Part shown: positions 9,574 through 20,196 of the stretch, piece after piece
Position numbering within the stretch: the first letter of the stretch is position 1
How the letters are laid out: each line of letters opens with the position of its first letter
IMG/VR virus record: IMGVR_UViG_3300047667_000140
Span: 1 to 22,398 of that record
DNA: 22,398 nt
Source of the DNA: a virus
Strand: one strand, 5' to 3'
Notes under the pieces: generated by a model
Seen by the model: only the letters and a program-made list of their open reading frames with translations
Told to the model about the DNA's origin: nothing
The model's database searches: none
Made by a program: the position numbers and the translations under genes

Positions 9574-9912
9574 ATGAGACCTTTATGCGAATGCGGATAC
9601 CGCCCAGCGGCAATAAACTACAAAAAAGACAATAGAACATTCTATCGCAAGCAATGTGAAACATGCTTGCACCATGGAGAGAAGAAGTGGGGAATACCTA
9701 AATGGCATCAAGCAGGGTATCGACAAAAAGATACATGTGAACGGTGTAGTTTTAATAGTCCGTATGTTGAGCAATTTAATGTGTATCATATAGATGGGAA
9801 TCTAAACAATACACTGCCAAGTAATTTAAAAACTGTTTGTGCTAATTGCCAGCGTGTTATGCAGAAGCTAGGCGTAAAGTGGAAGCAAGGCGACCTTGTA
9901 CCTGACTTTTAA
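9574..9912 (+). CDS. Small zinc-finger/HNH-like protein (112 aa)
   Basis: This small Cys-rich protein starts MRPLCECGYRPAAINYK. Cys pairs occur at C5/C7, C29/C32, C52/C55 and C89/C92, enough for two zinc ribbons. The segment FNVYHIDGNLNNTLPSNLKT followed by VCANCQ resembles an HNH or endonuclease VII finger. However, only one His is present where HNH enzymes usually have HH or DH, and the final His is Gln. Nuclease activity is therefore doubtful and a DNA- or RNA-binding role is possible. Similar proteins are, from memory, widespread in T4-like cyanophages. It lies alone on the plus strand between gp18 and the dNMP kinase, and its last 56 bases overlap the kinase gene tail to tail. Confidence 0.85.
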   Translation: MRPLCECGYRPAAINYKKDNRTFYRKQCETCLHHGEKKWGIPKWHQAGYRQKDTCERCSFNSPYVEQFNVYHIDGNLNNTLPSNLKTVCANCQRVMQKLGVKWKQGDLVPDF

Positions 9913-11617: not shown

Positions 11618-11647
11618 ATAGTATTTATGCACAACGATAAATACTAT
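11618..11647. promoter_or_regulatory. Back-to-back divergent late promoters in an 11-bp inverted repeat
   Basis: ATAGTATTTAT (11618-11628) and ATAAATACTAT (11637-11647) are perfect inverted copies separated by 8 bases. Each arm contains a late box: CATAAATA on the minus strand (11629-11622) for gp13 and GATAAATA on the plus strand (11636-11643) for gp14. The boxes point outward. Confidence 0.8.
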
Positions 11648-11651
11648 TACA

Positions 11652-12809
11652 ATGCCAAAACTTAGCTTATATAAACCCGAGAGAGGGAAAGACTACTCAT
11701 TCTTAGACAAAAGTATTACCGAGATGTTTACAATCGGTGGTACAGATGTTTTTGTTCATAAGTATCTTGGCCCTAAAAATCCTAGTGAAGCAGACGCAAC
11801 TGCTGACCAGCCTCGTTATGATGCTGTAAAAGAAACTAATATACAAGATATGTTGTTCCTTGAAAACAGGGATAGAAAATACGACCCAGACATTTACACG
11901 ATGCGTGGAATTTATAGCGTATCAGATGTAGACTTTGACATGAGTCAGTTTGGATTATTCTTACAAAATGATATTATATTCATGACAATCCCAATTAATT
12001 ATAGTGTTAAGACACTAGGGCGTAAGATCATGTCTGGTGATGTCATCGAGTTGCCTCACTTAAAAGACGAATATGCGGCAAATGATTTTAGCGTAGCACT
12101 TAAACGGTACTACGTAGTAGAAGATGTGAATAGAGCAAGCGAAGGATTTTCGCATACTTGGTATCCACACTTGTACAGAGTTAAAATGAAGCAGATTGTT
12201 GACAGTCAAGAGTTCAAAGAGATACTTGATTTACCTGCTGAAGAGGGAAGTACACAAACGTTACGTGATGTGCTTAGTACATACGACAAAGAAATGCAAA
12301 TTAATGATGCTATTCTTGAGCAAGCAGAAGCAGATGCTCCTAAGGCAGGATTTGATACTAGTCATTTGTACACATTACAGGTTGATGACGAAGGTGTTCC
12401 AGAACTAGTTACAACCGACATTACTACACTTGATGCTAGTACAGAAAACGAATTAGCAGATCGAGTCAATCAAACTCCTGAAAGAGAAGGTTATACAGGT
12501 TACTTAATTGGTGACGGCATTGCTCCAAACGGTGAAGCGTTTGGCAGTGGTCTTAGCTTTCCACTTAGTCAAGTTAAAGGTGATTACTTCTTAAGAGTAG
12601 ATATGATGCCGAACAGACTATTTAGATATGACGGACAACGTTGGGTTAAGATGGAAGATAATGTACGTATGACATTGACTAACACTACTGCTAAAGATAC
12701 ACAGCGTACAGGATTTATTAATAATACAAAAACTTCAACTATTGGCGGCGAAACAGTTGTCGAAAGACAAGGACTTGGATCCGCACTTAGACCAAAGGCA
12801 GATAACTAA
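11652..12809 (+). CDS. 14: Neck protein gp14, extended C-terminus
   Basis: This is the partner of gp13 in the T4-type neck. The N-terminal 190 residues fit gp14: ITEMFTIGGTDVFVHKYLG (22-40), DMLFLENRDRKYDP, an FGLFLQNDIIFMTIP strand pair, GDVIELPHLKD (129-139) and YYVVEDVNRASEGF, followed by the WYPHLYRVKMKQI strand. Residues 195-385 are extra compared with T4 gp14 (256 aa from memory). They include an aromatic beta module, GDYFLRVDMM to GQRWVKMED (310-336), like those in the sheath insertion. The ATG lies nine bases after a late box and has no Shine-Dalgarno. It opens the long plus-strand operon, and its TAA overlaps the gp15 ATG (TAATG). Confidence 0.8.
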   Translation: MPKLSLYKPERGKDYSFLDKSITEMFTIGGTDVFVHKYLGPKNPSEADATADQPRYDAVKETNIQDMLFLENRDRKYDPDIYTMRGIYSVSDVDFDMSQFGLFLQNDIIFMTIPINYSVKTLGRKIMSGDVIELPHLKDEYAANDFSVALKRYYVVEDVNRASEGFSHTWYPHLYRVKMKQIVDSQEFKEILDLPAEEGSTQTLRDVLSTYDKEMQINDAILEQAEADAPKAGFDTSHLYTLQVDDEGVPELVTTDITTLDASTENELADRVNQTPEREGYTGYLIGDGIAPNGEAFGSGLSFPLSQVKGDYFLRVDMMPNRLFRYDGQRWVKMEDNVRMTLTNTTAKDTQRTGFINNTKTSTIGGETVVERQGLGSALRPKADN

Positions 12810-14314
12810 TGCAACATTTTTATGATGGTCAGATTAGGCGCTATGTTACACAGTTAGTGAGACTGTTTAGTAACTTTTCTTACAAAGACGGTGACGGGAA
12901 AATAGTTCGTGTTCCAGTAACCTACGGTGACATTACTCGACAAGTTGGGCATATCATTAGAGATAATAGTGAGAACAAAATACCAAGTGCTCCGCGTATG
13001 GGCGTGTATATTACTGGATTAGAACAAGACAGAACACGCACAAGTGACAGTTCGTTTGTTAGTAAAGTTAATATACGTGAACGTGCATACGATACTGACG
13101 GAGCAGAATACTTAAACACACAAGGCAAAAATTACACTGTAGAACGTATAATGCCTAGTCCGTATAACCTACAAATTAATGTTGATGTTTGGTCAACTAA
13201 TACTGATCAAAAATTACAAATTATGGAACAAATATTAATGTTGTTTAATCCTAGTTTGGAAATACAAACAACAGATAATTATGTTGACTGGAGTAGTTTA
13301 ACCAGTGTTGAATTGTCTAGTTTAAGTTTTAGTAATAGATCTATTCCAATTGGGACAGAGTCTGAAATTGATATTGCACAACTTGGATTTACTACACCAA
13401 TATACATTAACCTTCCTGCTAAAGTTAAAAAGCTAGGCGTTATTACAAATGTTATAATGAGTATATTTGACGAGTCAAACGGAACAATCGACTTAGGATT
13501 AAGTACTCCTGAATTACTTGCATACAGCGATACTGAACAAGAGCGTCCGGCAATGAATAAACAAACTACTAGAGCAGAACGACAGGGTAATAACGTACAA
13601 GTAGGTATGACTACATTTAAAGATTACGAAATTGTTGTGTTAAATAATATAGCACAAATTATAGATAAGGGTATTGCAGGCTCTGTACAGTGGAGTAAAA
13701 TTATTGATGTACAACCCGGCGAATACAAAGCTGGATTATCACAGCTACAATTACAACGTAAGTTATTAACCGGCGAAAATACTAGTATTAGTGTTAATGG
13801 TGCTATAACAATTAACCCATTAGACGAAACACAACTTATTATTGCGTGGGATGACGACACTATACCAACCAACTCATCGTTAAATTCACCCAGTGGCAGA
13901 AATAATACAGGATCAGTAGACTTTATTATTAATCCTGCCAAATACAATCCAACTACTGCAAAAGCCGCAGGGTTAAGACTGTTATTATTAGGGTCAATTA
14001 ACACTAGTAGTAACGTTGGTGGACTAATGGACTTTGGTCAGGATCCAAGTGATGGTAGTTCTAAGGACCCATATGATGGTCCAGATGCCTGGAAAAATAC
14101 AGACAATTCAGATTTCGTTGCTAATGAAAATGACGTTATAGAATGGGACGGCGCACAATGGCATGTAGTGTTTGATGCTAGTGCAGACGTTGGTACAACC
14201 ACAAAATATCTAACAAATCTTAACACAGGTGTTCAGTATAGATGGACTGGCACAGAATGGATATTATCGTTCGAAGGCGAATACCGAAAAGGGACCTGGC
14301 GCCTGTCACTCTAA
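12809..14314 (+). CDS. 15: Tail sheath stabilizer/completion protein gp15, extended
   Basis: In T4, gp15 caps the finished tail and joins it to the neck. The start FYDGQIRRYVTQLVRLFSNF and the RVPVTYGD block (residues 35-41) closely follow T4 gp15. So do SAPRMGVYITGLEQDR near 60-75, YTVERIMPSPYNLQINVDVW (109-128) and QILMLFNPSLEIQTTDNY (141-158). At 501 aa it is nearly twice T4 gp15. Residues about 240-400 are an added beta-rich region. The last 75 residues hold two aromatic modules (W446/W451 and W479/W484) like those in gp18 and gp14. It is coupled to gp14 by TAATG, and the NUDIX gene follows after 13 bases. Confidence 0.85.
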   Translation: MQHFYDGQIRRYVTQLVRLFSNFSYKDGDGKIVRVPVTYGDITRQVGHIIRDNSENKIPSAPRMGVYITGLEQDRTRTSDSSFVSKVNIRERAYDTDGAEYLNTQGKNYTVERIMPSPYNLQINVDVWSTNTDQKLQIMEQILMLFNPSLEIQTTDNYVDWSSLTSVELSSLSFSNRSIPIGTESEIDIAQLGFTTPIYINLPAKVKKLGVITNVIMSIFDESNGTIDLGLSTPELLAYSDTEQERPAMNKQTTRAERQGNNVQVGMTTFKDYEIVVLNNIAQIIDKGIAGSVQWSKIIDVQPGEYKAGLSQLQLQRKLLTGENTSISVNGAITINPLDETQLIIAWDDDTIPTNSSLNSPSGRNNTGSVDFIINPAKYNPTTAKAAGLRLLLLGSINTSSNVGGLMDFGQDPSDGSSKDPYDGPDAWKNTDNSDFVANENDVIEWDGAQWHVVFDASADVGTTTKYLTNLNTGVQYRWTGTEWILSFEGEYRKGTWRLSL

Positions 14315-14327
14315 AATAAGTACTTGC

Positions 14328-14786
14328 ATGACTCAAGAAATAATTTGTAGTGGTGCATTGTTTTATTCCCTTAAAACAAAAAGATTCTTACTCTTACATC
14401 GCACCCAAAGTAAACAGAAGCACGTATGGGGACTTGTTGGTGGAACTAATGGCAAGGATGAATTGCCGTGGCCTGCACTTGAAAGAGAAATACAAGAAGA
14501 AATTGGTGGCATTCCTAATATAACAAAAACAATTCCTTTAGAAACATTTATAAGCACTGATGAAAAGTTTAGCTTTCATACGTATCTTGTAATAATTCAA
14601 GAAGAATTTATCCCAGAATTAAATTATGAACATGATGGATATGCATGGGTATCTTTTGGAAGATGGCCAAAGCCCTTGCACATGGGATTACGTAACACGC
14701 TCCAAAGTAAAACTAATCAAACAAAATTTGAAACAGTTTTTAATCTAATAGACTATCTAGGACAGGAAAATAATGAAGGAAATTAA
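14328..14786 (+). CDS. NUDIX hydrolase
   Basis: NUDIX enzymes hydrolyse nucleoside diphosphates linked to another group (NDP-sugars, oxidised dNTPs, capped RNA, cofactors). The 152-aa protein carries an almost complete NUDIX box: G39, five residues, E45, seven residues, then REIQEEIGG at 53-61. The metal-binding Glu residues (E54, E57, E58) are intact. The substrate cannot be read from the sequence. Beside sugar-nucleotide genes an NDP-sugar is possible, as is RNA decapping or house-cleaning. The start is the ATG at 14328. A longer frame from a GTG at 14229 lies inside gp15 and is rejected. No Shine-Dalgarno is seen, so reinitiation after gp15 is likely. The 3' end overlaps the first halogenase by 14 bases. 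Confidence 0.85.
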   Translation: MTQEIICSGALFYSLKTKRFLLLHRTQSKQKHVWGLVGGTNGKDELPWPALEREIQEEIGGIPNITKTIPLETFISTDEKFSFHTYLVIIQEEFIPELNYEHDGYAWVSFGRWPKPLHMGLRNTLQSKTNQTKFETVFNLIDYLGQENNEGN

Positions 14787-16278
14787 AAATATTACCATCG
14801 TCGGTGGCGGTACGGCGGCATGGCTAGCGGCCGCATATATTTCACGCAACATGTGGGACATTAGTCTAACAGTTATTGATAAAGAAGCAGGCAATCCTAT
14901 TGGTGTTGGCGAAGCTACTGTATTAACGTTCCCTGCATTTTTAAGAGATTGCGGCATTGATTTATCTGATTGGTTTCAAGCTGTTGACGGCACTTATAAG
15001 TCTGGGATTGATTTCCCAGGGTGGAAAAATCCTAAAGGATCTATATACCATCCGTTTTATTTAAATAGATCGTATCAAGAACACAACTGCACACAGTATG
15101 ATGTATGGGCACAAAAACAAAGTGTAGACTTTAAGAAATCATCATTACCAACATTTGACGTAGCAATGGATAACAAAGTTGATATATGGGCATCGTTTTC
15201 TGCGTTAGCATATCATATCGATGCTGGTAAGTTAGTGAAACAATTAGCAAAACACTGTGGACAACATCTTACTTTAATTAAAAGTGACGTAGTTGACGTT
15301 AACAGAAACGACCAAGGTGATGTTGTAAGTTTAGGATTAAAAAACGGCACAACACATACTTCAGATTTTTATATTGATTGTACAGGTTTTGCATCAGTAC
15401 TAAAAAAGCCAAAGCGTGTAGAATTATTGGGCAACGGTAGACTGTTTACTAACACTGCTGTTGCAGGACATATTCCGTACGAAGATAAAGACGCCGAATG
15501 CACTCCTTATGTAAGTTGTCCTGCGGTTGATCATGGATGGATTTGGAAGATACCAACGCAAACAAGAATTGGTAGCGGTATGGTGTTTAATAAAGATATT
15601 ACTGACATCGAAACAGCAAAACAATATTTTTGTGATCACTGGAACGGAAGAATTAAGCCTGAAGATTTAAAAGTTATTGACTGGCAACCATACTACAGTG
15701 AAAACTTCTGGGAGGGAAATGTTGTATCACTAGGCCTAAGTGGTGGATTTATTGAGCCTTTAGAAAGTACTGGCATTGCTAGTATGACTACTGGTGTTTA
15801 TAAATTAGTACAACGTATTCCCCAATATGCCTATACTCAAACAGATATTGATTCATACAATAAAGAAATGGCACATTGGTATGGTGATGCTGTTGACTTT
15901 GTTAACAGTCATTATGCTGACACAAAATGGGATACTCCTTTTTGGAATTATGTAAAAGACACACACGTCAAGTCAGACAAGCATAATTTCTATCAAAGAT
16001 GGCTTAAAGATCCTAGTAGAAAATTTTACACAAACGTCGATTCAATGACATTGTTCCATGCACCCAATTGGCATCTTTGGTTAATACAAATGGGATATCC
16101 TGTTAATAAAGATATATTAAATTTAAATGCGTTACAACTCAATGATATAAATCTAGACTTTGCTCGCCATGAAAAGATCCGTGGCATTACAAGTTTGTCT
16201 CATGCGGATGCTATTGAGTCTACTAATTTAGGGTGCGATTGGGTTGCTCGAACAGAATCAAGAAATCAAGGAATATAA
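14773..16278 (+). CDS. Flavin-dependent halogenase 1 (tryptophan-halogenase family)
   Basis: These enzymes use FADH2, O2 and halide to make hypohalous acid and halogenate a substrate through an active-site lysine. The 501-aa protein has all hallmarks: GGGTAAW at residues 11-17, GVGEAT at 44-49 for FAD, the lysine in GTYKSGIDF (K76, matching K79 of PrnA/RebH), the monooxygenase-blocking WxWxIP motif WIWKIP at 256-261, and EPLESTGI with E331-S332 matching the catalytic Glu-Ser. It is therefore predicted active. The substrate is unknown. The related phage enzyme VirX1 (cyanophage Syn10) shows that viral halogenases can be functional. No flavin reductase is in the window, so host FADH2 is needed. 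Its ATG is inside the NUDIX gene, with AGGA upstream. Confidence 0.92.
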   Translation: MKEIKNITIVGGGTAAWLAAAYISRNMWDISLTVIDKEAGNPIGVGEATVLTFPAFLRDCGIDLSDWFQAVDGTYKSGIDFPGWKNPKGSIYHPFYLNRSYQEHNCTQYDVWAQKQSVDFKKSSLPTFDVAMDNKVDIWASFSALAYHIDAGKLVKQLAKHCGQHLTLIKSDVVDVNRNDQGDVVSLGLKNGTTHTSDFYIDCTGFASVLKKPKRVELLGNGRLFTNTAVAGHIPYEDKDAECTPYVSCPAVDHGWIWKIPTQTRIGSGMVFNKDITDIETAKQYFCDHWNGRIKPEDLKVIDWQPYYSENFWEGNVVSLGLSGGFIEPLESTGIASMTTGVYKLVQRIPQYAYTQTDIDSYNKEMAHWYGDAVDFVNSHYADTKWDTPFWNYVKDTHVKSDKHNFYQRWLKDPSRKFYTNVDSMTLFHAPNWHLWLIQMGYPVNKDILNLNALQLNDINLDFARHEKIRGITSLSHADAIESTNLGCDWVARTESRNQGI

Positions 16279-16279
16279 T

Positions 16280-17761
16280 ATGAAAATAGTTATTGTTGGT
16301 GGCGGAACTGCTGGATGGTTAGCCGCACTTATGATTAGTAAAATTAGGCCAGAACATACAGTAACATGTATTGAAAGTTCTAAGATTGGTATCATTGGTG
16401 CCGGAGAAGGTAGTACAGGCGCACTAACAAACATTATTCAAAATGTAATGTGGGACTTTGGAATTGATGAACAAGACTTTATTAAAGAGTGCGATGCAAC
16501 AATTAAATTAGGCATTAAGCACATCGGCTGGGGGCCTGATATTAATAAATCATACTACGGTCCGATTGATGGTACTCCAACTGGTGGACAAGAAGCCGAC
16601 ATTATGTTTCAACATGCATTAGGGTGCAGAGACCAAGAGTTACTTCACCTTTCAACAGACTTAGGTTATAAAATACATCATAATAAAAATAGTTTTGTTG
16701 AACACGAAGGTAATCATGCATATCATTTTGATGCGCACAAAGTAGGAAAATATTTTAAAAAAGTCTGCACAGACGTAAAACACATTGACAGCGAAGTAAA
16801 AGATGTTATAATAGATAGTGAGCAGGGCTGGATTACTAGCTTAAACCTTACTAACGGACAGACAGTAAGTGGTGATATGTTTATTGATGCTAGTGGATTT
16901 AATCGAGTGTTAATGAATGCAGTAGGCGGCAAATGGAAAAGTTATAAAGAACAGTTGCCAGTTAATAGTGCATTGCCATTTATATTACCCTACGAAGAAG
17001 ATGAAATTATTCAACCAGTAACTAACGCATGGGCACAAAATAACGGCTGGTGTTGGAATATTCCTACACTTAACAGACGAGGATGTGGTTACGTATTCAG
17101 TGATGAGTTTGTAACGGCCGACCAAGCACATGCCGAACTTGAAGAAACTATTGGTAAGAAGGTTGATCCAATAAGGCTTATTAAATTTGATAGTGGCAGA
17201 CAAGAAAAGTTATGGATTAAGAATGTATTATCTATTGGACTTAGTGCGGCTTTTTCAGAGCCATTAGAAGCAACTAGTATTCATACTACTATATTTCAAT
17301 TGAGCAATTTTATATTTTCGGCATTAGGCCAAGGAAGAGAAGACACATGTGATGAACATGCAGTTGCTATGTATAATGATTTAAATGCACATATGTATGA
17401 CGGGTTAAGAGACTTTTTAGTAGCTCACTATACGTGTGGCCGTAAAGATACAGAGTTTTGGAAGTACATTAATAGCGGCGCAACTAGTACAGATTTTGTA
17501 AGGTCAATTCACGAAGTTTGTAAAACACGAGTACCTAACTATACATTATTTCCGAGAATCGAAGGTAACGCAGGATGGCCACTGTGGAGTTTTGTTTTAG
17601 CAGGAACCGGAAAACTAACAGACATAGTTGCTCAACAAGAATTAAAATTTAATAACAATGTACAAATTAGTGACAATGCGTATTCGTATAACATACAACA
17701 GTATCATATGAATAGTGAAAATTTACTAGACAATACACAGTATATAAAAGGTATGCAATAA
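16280..17761 (+). CDS. Flavin-dependent halogenase 2 (tryptophan-halogenase family)
   Basis: This is a diverged paralogue of the preceding gene, 493 aa. FAD motifs are GGGTAGW (7-13) and GAGEGST (40-46). The latter replaces the usual GEAT with GEGS. The active-site lysine is in ATIKLGIKHIGW (K76), at the same ordinal position as in halogenase 1. WCWNIP at 257-262 keeps the WxWxIP motif. EPLEATSI keeps the catalytic Glu (E330), but the next residue is Ala331 rather than the conserved Ser. It is probably active but may differ in halide or substrate choice. The start is the ATG at 16280 with AAGGA upstream. An in-frame upstream start inside halogenase 1 is rejected. It begins one base after the previous stop and overlaps hldE by one base. 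Confidence 0.9.
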   Translation: MKIVIVGGGTAGWLAALMISKIRPEHTVTCIESSKIGIIGAGEGSTGALTNIIQNVMWDFGIDEQDFIKECDATIKLGIKHIGWGPDINKSYYGPIDGTPTGGQEADIMFQHALGCRDQELLHLSTDLGYKIHHNKNSFVEHEGNHAYHFDAHKVGKYFKKVCTDVKHIDSEVKDVIIDSEQGWITSLNLTNGQTVSGDMFIDASGFNRVLMNAVGGKWKSYKEQLPVNSALPFILPYEEDEIIQPVTNAWAQNNGWCWNIPTLNRRGCGYVFSDEFVTADQAHAELEETIGKKVDPIRLIKFDSGRQEKLWIKNVLSIGLSAAFSEPLEATSIHTTIFQLSNFIFSALGQGREDTCDEHAVAMYNDLNAHMYDGLRDFLVAHYTCGRKDTEFWKYINSGATSTDFVRSIHEVCKTRVPNYTLFPRIEGNAGWPLWSFVLAGTGKLTDIVAQQELKFNNNVQISDNAYSYNIQQYHMNSENLLDNTQYIKGMQ

Positions 17762-18906
17762 TGAAAGTATTAGTTATTGGCGATGTAATAATCGACAAAT
17801 ATATCTATGGCACTTCACAACGTTTAAGCCCCGAAGCGCCTGTACCTATTGTTAAACACTTACATGAAGTTGAAACACTTGGCGGTGCAGGACTTGTTTA
17901 CAAAAACTTAAAGAGCTTAGGCGTCGACGTGACACTATTTGAAACTGAACAGCCTAGTAGCATTAAAACTAGAGTAATTTGTGACGGACACTATGTTACA
18001 CGCATTGACGATGATAAACATGCAGACAGTACACTAGTATTAGAAACTATAGAGTTACAGGACTTTTCAGAATACGAGTATGTGATATTAAGTGATTATA
18101 ATAAAGGTGTGTTAGACGAGTCACTTGAAATTATCAAGCACATTAACAGATTTAATTGTAAAATAATTGTAGATCCTAAAGAACATGCTAAACATTATAA
18201 AGATGCGTGGTTAATAAAACCTAATCATAGTGAGTTTACTAAGTTTGGATTTACAAGCTGGCAGGGTAATATCATTACAACTAATGCAGGCAATAATGTA
18301 GTTGCCACAATAGATAATGTAGATTACGATATTCCAGTTGAGGATGTAGAAGTGTCAGATGTTACAGGTGCAGGAGATTGTTTCTTGGCCGCATTTGTAT
18401 ACGGATTAACAAAGCAATACAATCATAAGCATTGTTTAGAACTTGCCGTTAGGGGTTCTAGAGAAGCAGTTAAACATGTAGGCACACACTTGCTTACAGT
18501 AACCGATATTGAGGATAGCATTGTGTTTACTAATGGAGTATTTGATATACTACACATAGGGCATTTAAAGCTTCTTAGCCATGCTAAAACACTAGGTAAT
18601 CGCCTAGTAGTGGGCATTAACAGCGATTCCAGTGTTAAGCGATTAAAAGGTGATTTAAGACCCATTAACGATCAGCACACCCGCAAGGAAAGCCTATTAA
18701 TGCTTGGTTTTGTAGACGAGGTGATAGTGTTTGAAGAAGACACTCCGTTGGAAGCAATTACCAAATTAGAGCCAAGTATTATAGTAAAAGGCGGTGACTA
18801 TACAGTAGAGACCGTAGTAGGAAACGAGTTAGCCAACGTGGTTATATTTCCTATACTAGAAGGACATAGCACAACTTTAATAGTTGACACACTAAACAAA
18901 AGATAG
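17761..18906 (+). CDS. hldE: HldE-like bifunctional heptose-7-phosphate kinase / heptose-1-phosphate adenylyltransferase
   Basis: HldE makes ADP-D,D-heptose, the core-LPS heptose donor precursor, in two steps. Residues 1-245 are a PfkB-type sugar kinase: GDVIIDKYIYGTSQRLSPEA at 7-26, LGGAG at 40-44, LSDYNKGVL, and DVTGAGD at 200-206 with catalytic D206. Residues 254-381 are a nucleotidyltransferase with FTNGVFDILHIGH (HxGH at 265-268), NSDSSVKRLKGD, VKGGDY and EGHSTT. It is 381 aa against 477 in E. coli. The kinase loses roughly 25 residues after the first GG motif and more before the GAGD loop, and the linker is shorter. Signature residues remain, so both activities are plausible. The exact sugar is inferred. 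The ATG overlaps the halogenase 2 stop (TAATG), with AAAGG upstream. Confidence 0.88.
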   Translation: MKVLVIGDVIIDKYIYGTSQRLSPEAPVPIVKHLHEVETLGGAGLVYKNLKSLGVDVTLFETEQPSSIKTRVICDGHYVTRIDDDKHADSTLVLETIELQDFSEYEYVILSDYNKGVLDESLEIIKHINRFNCKIIVDPKEHAKHYKDAWLIKPNHSEFTKFGFTSWQGNIITTNAGNNVVATIDNVDYDIPVEDVEVSDVTGAGDCFLAAFVYGLTKQYNHKHCLELAVRGSREAVKHVGTHLLTVTDIEDSIVFTNGVFDILHIGHLKLLSHAKTLGNRLVVGINSDSSVKRLKGDLRPINDQHTRKESLLMLGFVDEVIVFEEDTPLEAITKLEPSIIVKGGDYTVETVVGNELANVVIFPILEGHSTTLIVDTLNKR

Positions 18907-18912
18907 TATAAT
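18884..18912 (+). promoter_or_regulatory. Perfect-consensus sigma70 promoter before hldD
   Basis: TTGACA (18884-18889), a 17-bp spacer and TATAAT (18907-18912) match the bacterial housekeeping consensus at every position. The -35 is inside the end of hldE and the -10 follows its stop codon directly. Transcription would begin about seven bases later, just before AAAGAGGTGAGA and the hldD ATG. Confidence 0.85.
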
Positions 18913-18929
18913 ATATAAAAGAGGTGAGA

Positions 18930-19757
18930 ATGAAAGTATTAGTTACAGGATATAAAGGATTTATTGGGAGTTATATTTCCAATTACCTAACAGAACAAGG
19001 TCACGAAGTTGAAGGTTATGACTGGGTAGAAAACGTTGTACCGCATGTTGAAGGGTATGATTGGGTTGTGCATTGTGGTGCAATTTCAGATACTACCGAA
19101 CGTGATGTAGAAAAAGTGTGGCAACACAATTATGAATTTACATTAAGATTGTTACAAATTTGTGACCACTTTGGAACAAATATCCAAATAGCAAGTACAG
19201 CCGCAGTGTATGGTAACATGACAGAGTTTAATGAATCTAGTGCAGTGTATCCACAAACACCGTATGCATGGAGTAAGTTTTTAGTTGACAAGTTCCTAAA
19301 TGATAACGGCTACGATAGCTTTAGTATGAATGTACAAACTTTTAGATATTTTAATGTGTACGGACCCGGTGAAGGACACAAAGGCGATCAAATGAGTCTA
19401 GTTAGTAAGTTTCAAAAACAGGCTTCGCAAGATGGTGTAATTAAATTGTTTGAAGACAGCGACAAGTATTTTAGAGATTGTATTTGTGTACACGATATTG
19501 CAGTAATACAAGAAAAGCTAATGCACACAGACGAAGCTGGCTTATTTAATATGGGCACTAACAAAGCGCCAAGTGTAGAAGAAGTTGCTAGAACAATAGC
19601 TAAAAAGTATGATGCAAAAATTGAATACATTCCGATGCCAGATAAGTTAAAATCACAATACCAAGAATACACTTGTGCTGACAATGCTAAGTTACACAAT
19701 GCTGTACCGATTAGACATTGGATGACTGTAGAGGAGTATATTAATGCAACCGACTAG
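18930..19757 (+). CDS. hldD: HldD-like ADP-heptose 6-epimerase (NAD(P)-dependent SDR)
   Basis: HldD epimerises ADP-D-glycero-D-manno-heptose to the L-glycero form. The 275-aa extended SDR has TGYKGFIG (GxxGxxG, 7-13), STAAVYG (89-95), YxxxK at Y112/K116, and FRYFNVYGPGEGHKG at 138-152 with K151. Y112 and K151 correspond to the catalytic Tyr140/Lys178 pair of E. coli HldD. It also has KLFEDSDKYFRDCICVHD, and IEYIPMPDKLKSQYQEYT at 231-248, very close to E. coli HldD. It is about 35 residues shorter, mainly in the region after the first helix. The ATG at 18930 follows a strong GAGGTGA Shine-Dalgarno. A GTG two codons earlier lies within it and is rejected. A sigma70 promoter precedes the gene, and the cupin gene overlaps its end by 14 bases. 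Confidence 0.9.
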   Translation: MKVLVTGYKGFIGSYISNYLTEQGHEVEGYDWVENVVPHVEGYDWVVHCGAISDTTERDVEKVWQHNYEFTLRLLQICDHFGTNIQIASTAAVYGNMTEFNESSAVYPQTPYAWSKFLVDKFLNDNGYDSFSMNVQTFRYFNVYGPGEGHKGDQMSLVSKFQKQASQDGVIKLFEDSDKYFRDCICVHDIAVIQEKLMHTDEAGLFNMGTNKAPSVEEVARTIAKKYDAKIEYIPMPDKLKSQYQEYTCADNAKLHNAVPIRHWMTVEEYINATD

Positions 19758-20148
19758 ACTAGAAGGTAAGGTAGATAAAGGCTGGGGTTACGAATTAATT
19801 TGGGCCACTAACGAAAAATACTGTGGAAAGATTATGGTGTTTAATCGAGTAGGCGCTAAGTTTAGTATGCACTTCCATAGAGAAAAAGACGAGTCTTGGT
19901 TTGTAAACAATGGCAGATTCTTACTTAATTATATTGACACTGATACTGCCGAGTACAAAAGTCAAGAACTTGTAGAAGGTTCAGTATGGCACAATCCGCC
20001 ATTAATGCCGCATCAGTTAGTATGTATGGAAGCTGGAAGTAGTATTACTGAAGTAAGCACTCCTGATAGTGTAGAAGATAATTATCGCATTGGTCCAGGT
20101 GATAGCCAAAAGATAAAGCCAGCAATGGAAATTATAGATCAAGAATAG
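19744..20148 (+). CDS. Cupin, similar to the type II mannose-6-phosphate isomerase domain
   Basis: This 134-aa single-domain cupin has a KGWGYELIW start like the PWG-type start of ManC/AlgA isomerase domains. Cupin motif 1 is FSMHFHREKDESWFVNNG, fitting H-x-H-x4-E-x6-G with two His and one Glu metal ligands. Motif 2 contains PLMPHQL with the final His. It closes with EVSTPDSVEDNYRIGPGD, similar to the EV-T-x-D end of isomerase cupins. It probably binds a metal and a sugar phosphate or nucleotide sugar. Isomerase is the most likely activity, but epimerase or non-enzymatic binding cannot be excluded. The ATG has GAGGAG seven bases upstream, inside hldD. It is the last gene of the operon. Confidence 0.82.
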   Translation: MQPTRLEGKVDKGWGYELIWATNEKYCGKIMVFNRVGAKFSMHFHREKDESWFVNNGRFLLNYIDTDTAEYKSQELVEGSVWHNPPLMPHQLVCMEAGSSITEVSTPDSVEDNYRIGPGDSQKIKPAMEIIDQE

Positions 20149-20166: not shown

Positions 20167-20196
20167 AAAAAAGGAGCAATTACTGCTCCTTTTTTT
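20167..20196. terminator. Bidirectional rho-independent terminator
   Basis: ggagca (20173-20178), loop attac, tgctcc (20184-20189), flanked by six A on the left and seven T on the right. The flanks extend the stem and give a U run on either strand. It separates the plus-strand operon from the convergent structural gene. Confidence 0.92.

Follow-up and report, generated by a model that had tools for sequence, protein, structure and literature searches.

A candidate ADP-heptose cargo slot with exchanged halogenases behind the neck genes of a marine jumbo-phage group

In a marine jumbo-phage group, we propose, cargo is carried in a slot that opens after the gp15-NUDIX end of the neck operon and closes at a convergent fibre-type gene; this cargo would usually encode a route to ADP-heptose, tailored in one clade by exchanged halogenases, for a surface glycan. 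Taken as a whole, with the enzymatic activities, the role of the cupin, the product and its destination all predicted, this account has in our judgment about an even chance of being correct. In the window, by which we mean the entire 22,398-nt stretch of viral DNA analysed, six intact ORFs, all on the + strand, lie behind gp14-gp15. Open reading frames and profile matches confirm the families and spacing described in an earlier, sequence-only reading, with 13 nt between gp15 and NUDIX and overlaps or gaps of 14, 1, 1, 23 and 14 nt between the successive cassette genes. The locus comprises the following parts:

11652..12809, + strand: gp14-like neck protein, first gene of the operon, backbone (phrog_11591, E 4e-89)
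12809..14314, + strand: gp15-like tail sheath stabiliser, backbone (PF16724, E 1e-25)
14328..14786, + strand: NUDIX hydrolase, backbone (PF00293, E 9e-12)
14773..16278, + strand: Hal1, flavin-dependent halogenase-like (PF04820, E 5e-88; Lys76, Glu328)
16280..17761, + strand: Hal2, flavin-dependent halogenase-like, ATG start (PF04820, E 2e-94; Lys76, Glu327)
17761..18906, + strand: HldE-like bifunctional kinase/adenylyltransferase with a compact kinase domain (CTP_transf_like, E 2e-17; PfkB, E 7e-15)
18930..19757, + strand: HldD-like ADP-heptose 6-epimerase, ATG start (Epimerase, E 8e-29)
19744..20148, + strand: metal-type cupin (H43, H45, E50, H90), proposed sugar-phosphate isomerase (phrog_7851, E 6e-35)
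11622..11643, bidirectional: late-type promoter, ATAAATA on both strands, in the gp13/gp14 intergenic region (motif position analysis)
18884..18912, + strand: perfect sigma70-type promoter, TTGACA-17-TATAAT, 5' of HldD (motif scan)
20167..20196, bidirectional: terminator-like hairpin between the cupin and the convergent fibre-type gene (by eye; not listed in the sequence scan)

The array is not a chance arrangement, as it recurs in many loci and its genes show dN well below dS. Synteny is strongly conserved, against the rare co-occurrence that the earlier reading had named as its refutation: beside the cupin, HldE is present in 78 and HldD in all 79 of the 79 cupin-selected loci. The view of the six genes as one system held in part. 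The usual cargo core is HldE-HldD-cupin, and this core is conserved; the six-gene cassette as a unit was rejected, since NUDIX stays when the rest is absent and the halogenases come and go. Because the NUDIX gene is retained even in gp14-selected loci where the slot behind it is otherwise empty, we assign it to the backbone and not to the cargo; its Nudix box was read by eye, and its listed ORF begins at GTG 14229, the ATG at 14328 being the start chosen earlier. Among the 55 closed gp14-selected slots, HldE occurs in 39 and the halogenase pair in 16, which makes the halogenases optional cargo. Empty, partial and variant slots exist, and where HldE is present, order and co-occurrence are near-fixed.

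The closest relatives of gp14 among the matches listed (30 of 60) are the jumbo phages Phosso, Atu_ph07 and PA5oct, and with no cyanophage among those 30 we rejected a cyanophage origin of the window. Relatives of gp14 were sampled as the best 80 of 334 in one search and the best 80 of at least 591 in another. The cargo resembles cyanophage cargo, although the backbone is not cyanophage-like.

By family, Hal1 and Hal2 are flavin-dependent halogenases, with predicted halogenating activity. They score 296 and 318 bits against PF04820 (cut-off 21), and in each a Lys and a Glu align with the catalytic positions of PrnA. VirX1 (6qgm) is among the solved relatives of both proteins and nearest to neither. 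The Lys/Glu pair is kept in all 92 unique phage halogenases of at least 380 aa. In the gp14 tree the halogenase pair marks one clade, within which it is swapped between near-identical phages as an allele block: between the window and locus L016, the two halogenases are 69% and 78% identical, whereas the other genes compared are 97-99.9% identical. Such exchange suggests selection for variety by something that encounters the product. The full core accompanies the halogenases in all 29 complete halogenase-bearing slots of one locus set; in other phages halogenases occur with no heptose genes nearby (S-RIM44, HTVC008M), and in one locus (L344) they stand beside a degraded cupin.

Synthesis of an activated heptose, as suggested earlier, is the best pathway reading of the gene set. 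The HldE-like protein contains both PfkB kinase and cytidylyltransferase-like domains, and the kinase GAGD and adenylyltransferase HxGH motifs are invariant in 21 of 21 aligned rows. Its scores lie under the NCBIfam equivalog cut-offs (264.8 vs 521 bits for PRK11316, 170.6 vs 345 and 155.3 vs 181.5), as does that of the HldD-like protein for TIGR02197 (214 vs 274.6 bits), and we therefore use only the names HldE-like and HldD-like. The best solved relative of the latter is HldD itself (1eq2, E 5e-40), and its GHKG segment, in which the Lys presumably has a role in HldD, aligns with that of the E. coli enzyme. With the halogenase Lys/Glu pairs and the Nudix box, these motifs bear out the earlier remark that hallmark residues are retained.

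The cupin matches the PHROG family given above and has no Pfam match at 1e-3. In loci with HldE, its metal ligands read HHEH in 135 of 137 ORFs (87 of 88 unique sequences), the exception being an HLEH change in one contig (L108/L211). Leaving L305 aside, all seven slots that lack HldE but retain a cupin show degraded ligands; six of these slots were placed in the gp14 tree, at two or three separate positions. L305 combines an intact cupin with HldD-like and GmhB-like genes and no recognised HldE. Every one of the 137 cupin ORFs from HldE-bearing loci retains Glu50. The active site of cysteine dioxygenase lacks the cupin Glu, and this retention would speak against the PHROG label 'cysteine dioxygenase'. 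That cysteine dioxygenase is not named among the 50 rows shown in either of two lists of cupin relatives carries no evidential weight. Fold matches of the predicted structure (mean pLDDT 75.6) are spread over KdgF, oxalate decarboxylase, archaeal phosphoglucose isomerase, D-lyxose isomerase and non-enzymatic cupins, that is, over many kinds of cupin and not isomerases specifically.

As a cupin, the protein does not have the SIS fold of GmhA; it is a candidate that may work like GmhA without belonging to its family, and SIS_2 (GmhA) gave no match in the eight phage contigs searched, all of them possibly fragments. A HAD phosphatase lies in the operon in 35 of the 79 cupin-selected loci (GmhB type in 30, GC306 type in 5), one type replacing the other in the same gene company. 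With a phosphatase supplied in many loci, the cupin would be left as the candidate for the first step, that of GmhA. The GC306 protein, annotated as 'phosphoheptose isomerase' in cyanophages, weakly matches a HAD phosphatase model, which would make the cupin the isomerase candidate there too.

Records titled as cellular (L152-L154, L161, L183) place the cupin beside an HldE-type kinase and adenylyltransferase; the cellular cupins most closely related to it (L148, L149) are solitary genes at a distance from heptose genes, and the other cellular loci mostly have no HldE next to the cupin. With the genomes of 31 of 39 cupin loci searched, phyletic complementarity between cupin and GmhA across mixed genomes is suggestive and confounded: GmhA is missing from 16 of 26 genomes in the cupin set vs 17 of 107 in the control (p 8e-6), the HldE threshold being looser in the cupin set (1e-20) than in the control (1e-40). 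Within one sample the figures are 2/3 vs 17/107 (p 0.08). In the family of Marinoscillum, GmhA is absent from 32 of 60 genomes regardless, and the cupin occurs in 1 of 118 sampled genomes.

Further enzymes are encoded elsewhere in relatives. In the relative G001, a GmhB-like gene (g198), syntenic in G009, belongs to a second cluster some 9 kb further along, and 2OG oxygenases, a carbamoyltransferase and a third halogenase are encoded about 9-16 kb downstream; the window has no HAD phosphatase, 2OG oxygenase or carbamoyltransferase gene. In the 34 kb of G005, which has no halogenases, GmhB and the third halogenase are both missing. A 262-kb relative encodes carbamoyltransferases, five radical SAM matches, an ATP-grasp protein, an aminotransferase, an ABC transporter and glycosyltransferases of families 25 and 8. 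No clear heptosyltransferase was found, with weak GT9 matches below the cut-off in 2 of 8 records, from one homologous gene. The '2OG' labels in our tallies were assigned partly by eye; Pfam supports three of the five tested proteins outside G001 (L146 7303-7995, L079 16243-16818 and L098) and not the other two (L146 5890-6498 and L079 15560-16243). A by-eye 'HNH' label had no Pfam match.

All 62 loci that cover both gene starts (some of which share contigs) have ATAAATA on each strand of the gp13/gp14 intergenic region. Co-transcription with the neck genes, as the sequence-only reading had it, agrees with this late-type promoter ahead of gp14; however, HldD has its own sigma70-type promoter, perfect in the window and close to consensus in 19 of the 44 loci that have both genes, so that the array is not simply one late transcript and its timing may not be purely late. 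The T4 late octamer TATAAATA was tried and discarded (1 exact match in the window vs 2.7 expected), ATAAATA with position analysis being informative; in G001, ATAAATA is less frequent than in simulations (67 copies vs 99-139), and 37 of these 67 copies fall no more than 60 nt from a called start. Of 46 full-length Hal2 loci, two, on a single contig, have the perfect sigma70 site that lies inside Hal2 in the window (16785-16812), and this site is not treated as part of the system.

In the route we propose, the cupin, replacing GmhA, would isomerise sedoheptulose-7-phosphate to heptose-7-phosphate, after which the HldE-like kinase, a GmhB-type phosphatase, the HldE-like adenylyltransferase and the HldD-like epimerase would lead to ADP-heptose. 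The phosphatase would come from the operon itself in many relatives and from the second cluster in the closer relatives G001 and G009. Heading the cargo in one clade, the halogenase pair may act as a tailoring module with the third halogenase, 2OG oxygenases and carbamoyltransferase of G001, and the product is most likely destined for a glycan or glycoconjugate at the surface of the virion or of the infected cell, with synthesis mainly in late infection. A stricter version, in which the route from sedoheptulose 7-phosphate to ADP-heptose is self-contained, the cupin is a new non-orthologous isomerase and halogenase allele blocks vary a halogenated, heptose-bearing virion surface, strikes us as doubtful.

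It is unlikely, in our estimate, that the same heptose core instead feeds a diffusible halogenated sugar-amino acid small molecule, one of two readings offered for cyanophages in a passage of Iyer et al. (PMC7824862). The tryptophan-halogenase family membership of Hal1 and Hal2 points that way, as do the carbamoyltransferase, radical SAM, ATP-grasp, aminotransferase and ABC transporter genes of the 262-kb relative; yet that phage also encodes glycosyltransferases of families 25 and 8, and the heptose core is found in more slots than the halogenases, which means that heptose must have a use by itself. We likewise give a low probability to a sugar that alters the host envelope to block superinfection, with the halogenases as independent cargo of the same slot. 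Halogenases apart from heptose genes (S-RIM44, HTVC008M) or beside a degraded cupin (L344) fit that idea, a standing proposal for cyanophage LPS gene clusters in the portion of the literature covered, whereas the full core in all 29 complete halogenase-bearing slots does not, and a late-type promoter would be late for exclusion, though the HldD promoter could act early. Least probable, and improbable outright, is a recombination hot spot whose metabolic genes are only loosely related and share no function. The empty, partial and variant slots count in its favour, as does the g15-g18 region, known to be hypervariable in cyanophages; near-fixed order and co-occurrence with HldE, the low dN, the interchange of HAD phosphatase types in the same company and the degradation of cupin ligands where HldE is missing (intact with HldE, bar the one HLEH contig) all argue against it.

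Nucleotide-heptose is otherwise tied to bacterial envelopes. Were our preferred account of a tailored ADP-heptose cargo true, a widespread group of ocean jumbo phages would make its own nucleotide-heptose and vary its chemistry by halogenase swaps, the cupin labelled 'cysteine dioxygenase' in PHROGs and in cyanophage records would gain a concrete assignment, and a HAD phosphatase would stand behind the cyanophage label 'phosphoheptose isomerase'.

The combination, earlier thought undescribed, has a precedent in print, and by its gene content the system appears to be a variant of cargo already known from cyanophages. A passage of Iyer et al. 2021 (PMC7824862) presents a halogenase-plus-sugar cluster in S-SSM6a/S-SSM7, with a halogenase, HldE-type kinase and adenylyltransferase, HAD phosphatase, cupin, HldD-like epimerase, 2OG oxygenases and carbamoyltransferases; the window shares the core given there, namely halogenase, sugar kinase/nucleotidyltransferase, epimerase and cupin together. 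In S-SSM7, the halogenase, split HldE, cupin and HldD-like epimerase adjoin gp13-gp14-gp15, just upstream. The two differ in backbone, in gene order, in HldE (split in S-SSM7, fused in the window), in the halogenases (one beside the sugar genes vs a co-located pair), in the epimerase, which is on the other strand in S-SSM7, and in position, upstream of gp13 vs downstream of gp15. The P-SSM2-type LPS set (T4-GC 304, 305, 307 and 308), as given in a section of PMC3037559, likewise unites HldE parts, cupin and epimerase in P-SSM2, S-SM2 and S-SSM7; unlike in the window, the P-SSM2 stretch has no halogenase and is set between tail fibre genes. In the relevant passage of PMC2984593, the hyperplastic g15-g18 region of cyanomyoviruses also carries variable metabolic cargo just after gp15, a position called unique to cyanophages there, whereas the window places such cargo in a non-cyanophage jumbo group.

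The six-gene array that follows gp14 and gp15 is real and conserved, and of more interest than a chance array. An ORF listing of the window, a virus record of 22,398 bases, reproduces the strand and spacing first described for the six ORFs, the gene names of the sequence-only reading agree with family profile scans, and these scans identify the flanking genes as T4-type neck and tail genes. Relatives were obtained from an IMG/VR gp14 search (334 relatives, best 80 taken) and a Hal1 search (43 relatives). gp15 is matched in 106 of the 114 fetched loci (L009-L122), 34 of which extend to the convergent fibre-type gene that closes the slot, the cargo site behind the gp15-NUDIX end of the neck operon. 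The proposed synteny across marine viral relatives is borne out by a near-constant gene set in these 34 complete loci (27 distinct DNA stretches): NUDIX, HldE, HldD and cupin are present in all 34, with 27 showing the order NUDIX-Hal-Hal-HldE-HldD-cupin, 2 carrying three halogenases and 5 carrying none. The 17 loci with gp15 and without NUDIX stop inside or just past gp15. In one three-halogenase locus, a DoxX-family membrane protein gene lies between HldE and HldD (L113:15679-16089).

All samples, including the gp14 and cupin sets that follow, are biased to near relatives, and in several cases loci share a contig or a population. A fairer sample comprised 152 gp14-selected loci, 80 from the first gp14 search and 72 new from a wider one (at least 600 stretches, at least 591 confirmed, best 80 taken), excluding L108 and L110, which the wider gp14 and Hal1 searches shared. 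A match to the window's fibre-type gene is reached in 42 of these loci (38 distinct gp14 genes), of which 39 have HldE, 16 a halogenase pair and 11 an in-slot GmhB; L305, L324 and L346 are without HldE. Another 13 slots, closed by a different convergent ORF, are all without HldE, which is present in 39/55 closed slots. Eight of the 55 are empty behind NUDIX, and NUDIX is the only gene in slots L316, L331, L341, L347, L322, L329 and L339. HldE-less slots L297, L298, L302, L340 and L291 hold the cupin and a small ORF, with a 2OG-like gene too in L291, and L344 has one halogenase, the cupin and the small ORF. NUDIX, which had been counted as part of the metabolic cassette, is therefore backbone, and the slot behind it is variable. 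A cupin search (at least 599 stretches, at least 574 confirmed, best 80 taken) yielded 79 newly fetched loci, with HldD in all 79 and HldE in 78, the exception (L229) being truncated by the contig edge. Thirty of them carry a GmhB-type gene, and 5, whose sugar genes are oriented against NUDIX, carry a different HAD phosphatase of GC306 type; halogenases occur in 19, and halogenase and in-slot GmhB together in none.

The window was considered as a cyanophage and this was rejected: no cyanophage is among the 30 gp14 matches listed of 60 records, and the best of those listed (34–37% identical) are Sinorhizobium phage Phosso, Agrobacterium phage Atu_ph07 and the PA5oct group. Because of these gp14 matches, we place the backbone in a group of jumbo phages that are not cyanophages. 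The best annotated matches of the halogenases are cyanophage proteins, from S-SSM6a/S-SSM7 for Hal1 (40%) and at 36–38% for Hal2, and a comparable halogenase-plus-sugar cluster has been described in cyanophages (Iyer et al. 2021, PMC7824862). Passages of Sullivan et al. 2010 (PMC3037559) report co-occurrence of T4-GC 304, 305, 307 and 308 in three cyanophages, and part of a review (PMC2984593) calls the g15-g18 variable region unique to cyanophages. Excerpts of other papers report that 76% of one group of marine jumbo phages have LPS biosynthesis proteins (PMC9123017) and that marine viral metabolic genes include LPS genes, rfaE among them (PMC10653327). Among the open-licence papers listed by literature searches, none describes the arrangement outside cyanophages in its title or opening abstract lines, and passage searches of PMC9123017, PMC12619734 and PMC13282480 gave no mention of halogenase or heptose. 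The array, as characterized from its genes, is a variant, itself new, of an already known phage gene set.

Elsewhere in the backbone, a small plus-strand ORF (window 9574-9912; no Pfam match at 0.01) overlaps the dNMP kinase gene at its end, with 54–100% conservation in the compared loci. Some 170–245 extra bases, not present in the window, separate gp14 from gp15 in L022, L031, L033, L036, L037 and others.

Both halogenases align to PrnA through the catalytic Lys and Glu, which are kept in 92/92 unique phage halogenases of at least 380 aa. Compared with locus L016, the window is 97–99.9% identical in nucleotides across sheath, dNMP kinase, gp13, gp14, gp15, NUDIX, HldE, HldD, cupin and fibre-type gene, against 69.3% in Hal1 and 77.9% in Hal2 (dS 1.46 and 0.96; other genes at most 0.12), with identity falling near 14,650 and returning near 17,650. 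In L010, Hal1 is replaced (74.6%), gp15 is 99.9% identical and the first Hal2 codons, where the contig stops, are identical. These alignments clearly show an exchange of halogenase alleles. Wherever change is measurable, dN is well under dS, the top ratio (~0.5) coming from HldE when compared with the longer L059 form. HldE-like genes at this position (window 17761-18906, L059, L058, L100) are compact (381–387 aa) or longer (416–431 aa), and their two domains apparently recombine separately.

ADP-heptose is made from sedoheptulose 7-phosphate by the isomerase GmhA, the kinase of HldE, the phosphatase GmhB, the adenylyltransferase of HldE and the epimerase HldD. The window encodes kinase and adenylyltransferase as one protein, the epimerase and the cupin. 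In the 262-kb relative G001, ~9–16 kb downstream on the other strand, a second cluster holds a GmhB-like phosphatase (133 bits against PRK08942, under its cut-off of 178), a third halogenase, 2OG oxygenases (two above cut-off, one below) and a carbamoyltransferase, an order also found in relative G009. Halogenase-free relative G005 keeps the carbamoyltransferase, with neither GmhB nor third halogenase within its 34 kb. In L146/L147, a GmhB-like gene comes after the cupin within the operon; these contigs, titled Neomarinimicrobiota MAGs, carry phage neck genes with the heptose operon (L146:1696-8991) and are therefore phage DNA binned with a bacterial genome. A profile search of 8 phage contigs gave no SIS_2 match. 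Cyanophage GC306, annotated 'phosphoheptose isomerase' in P-SSM2 and S-SSM7 (L005:8113-8457, L003:12545-12880), has weak matches of 35 and 26 bits, far under the cut-off of 162, to a HAD phosphatase model of capsule biosynthesis (EcbF/BcbF), and matched no isomerase model in NCBIfam. By elimination, the cupin is the isomerase candidate, which would be a new and testable role.

G001 also has a second large metabolic region (L133-L135, ~213–244 kb) with five radical SAM hits, B12-binding, DegT aminotransferase, carbamoyltransferase, ABC transporter parts, ATP-grasp and nitroreductase, and, mixed among replication and recombination genes (L126-L128, ~72–104 kb), glycan-type genes encoding GT25, GT8, FkbM methyltransferase, sulfotransferase and a mannose-6-phosphate isomerase-like cupin.

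The cupin metal site, with four ligands (HHEH), served as an independent test of the isomerase candidacy. HHEH is found in 135/137 cupin ORFs of HldE-bearing loci (87/88 unique sequences), the single exception being HLEH in one contig fetched twice; an unrelated cupin in L127 has HHNH. The ligands are lost in 7 cupins of HldE-less slots (L291, L297, L298, L302, L324, L340, L344). Three other matches have HHEH without HldE in the same locus: the truncated L229; L141, a 20-kb piece of G009 with HldE in the next piece; and L305, truly without recognised HldE, yet with HldD-like and GmhB-like genes. A small ORF of 83–87 aa follows the degraded cupin at L297:5543-5794, L298:4139-4390, L302:5223-5474, L340:3212-3475, L344:14628-14891 and L291:4270-4530; together the two may serve a new function that needs no metal. 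In a quick gp14 tree (85 rows, some from one contig; slot states of L297, L298, L302, L316, L331, L340, L341, L344, L346 and L347 entered by hand), halogenase pairs or triplets form one clade (25 rows, SH-aLRT 91), the L344 halogenase lies outside it, and HldE-less slots are scattered over several places. Degraded-cupin slots form three groups (L324 and L344; L297, L298 and L302; L340), two of them on an unresolved fork and hence representing two or three events; long branches make the positions of L008, L247, L347 and L346 unsure.

Among records titled cellular genomes, L152-L154, L161 and L183 have the cupin beside an HldE-type kinase and adenylyltransferase, though several of these records are short metagenome-bin contigs that could be viral; the closest cellular cupins (L148, L149) and most others have no such neighbours. 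GmhA is absent from 16/26 HldE-bearing cupin genomes vs 17/107 of a control sample, a confounded comparison, and, inside that sample, from 2/3 cupin genomes (p 0.08). L148 (titled Rickettsiales) and L149 (Marinoscillum pacificum isolate) have identical gene order across the fetched stretch, so the Rickettsiales MAG label looks wrong.

Expression signals include, at the operon end, one feature read by eye from the sequence:
20167-20196: hairpin with A and T runs
Five of the window's 6 ATAAATA sites lie 15–39 nt upstream of virion- or packaging-type gene starts; the sixth is 26 nt upstream of gp13 if the start is ATG 11602, and is not assigned under the longer GTG start. The gp13/gp14 gap has ATAAATA on both strands in 62/62 loci. 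A perfect sigma70-type promoter is predicted ahead of HldD in the window; the region has 2 perfect sites vs 0.01 per approximate shuffle, and 19/44 loci with both genes have a near-consensus site at HldD. G001 has 7 perfect sites vs 0–1 in ten simulations, 6 of them within 100 nt of a called start and none at its HldD. Because of these sigma70-type promoter data, part of the gene set may also be read early.
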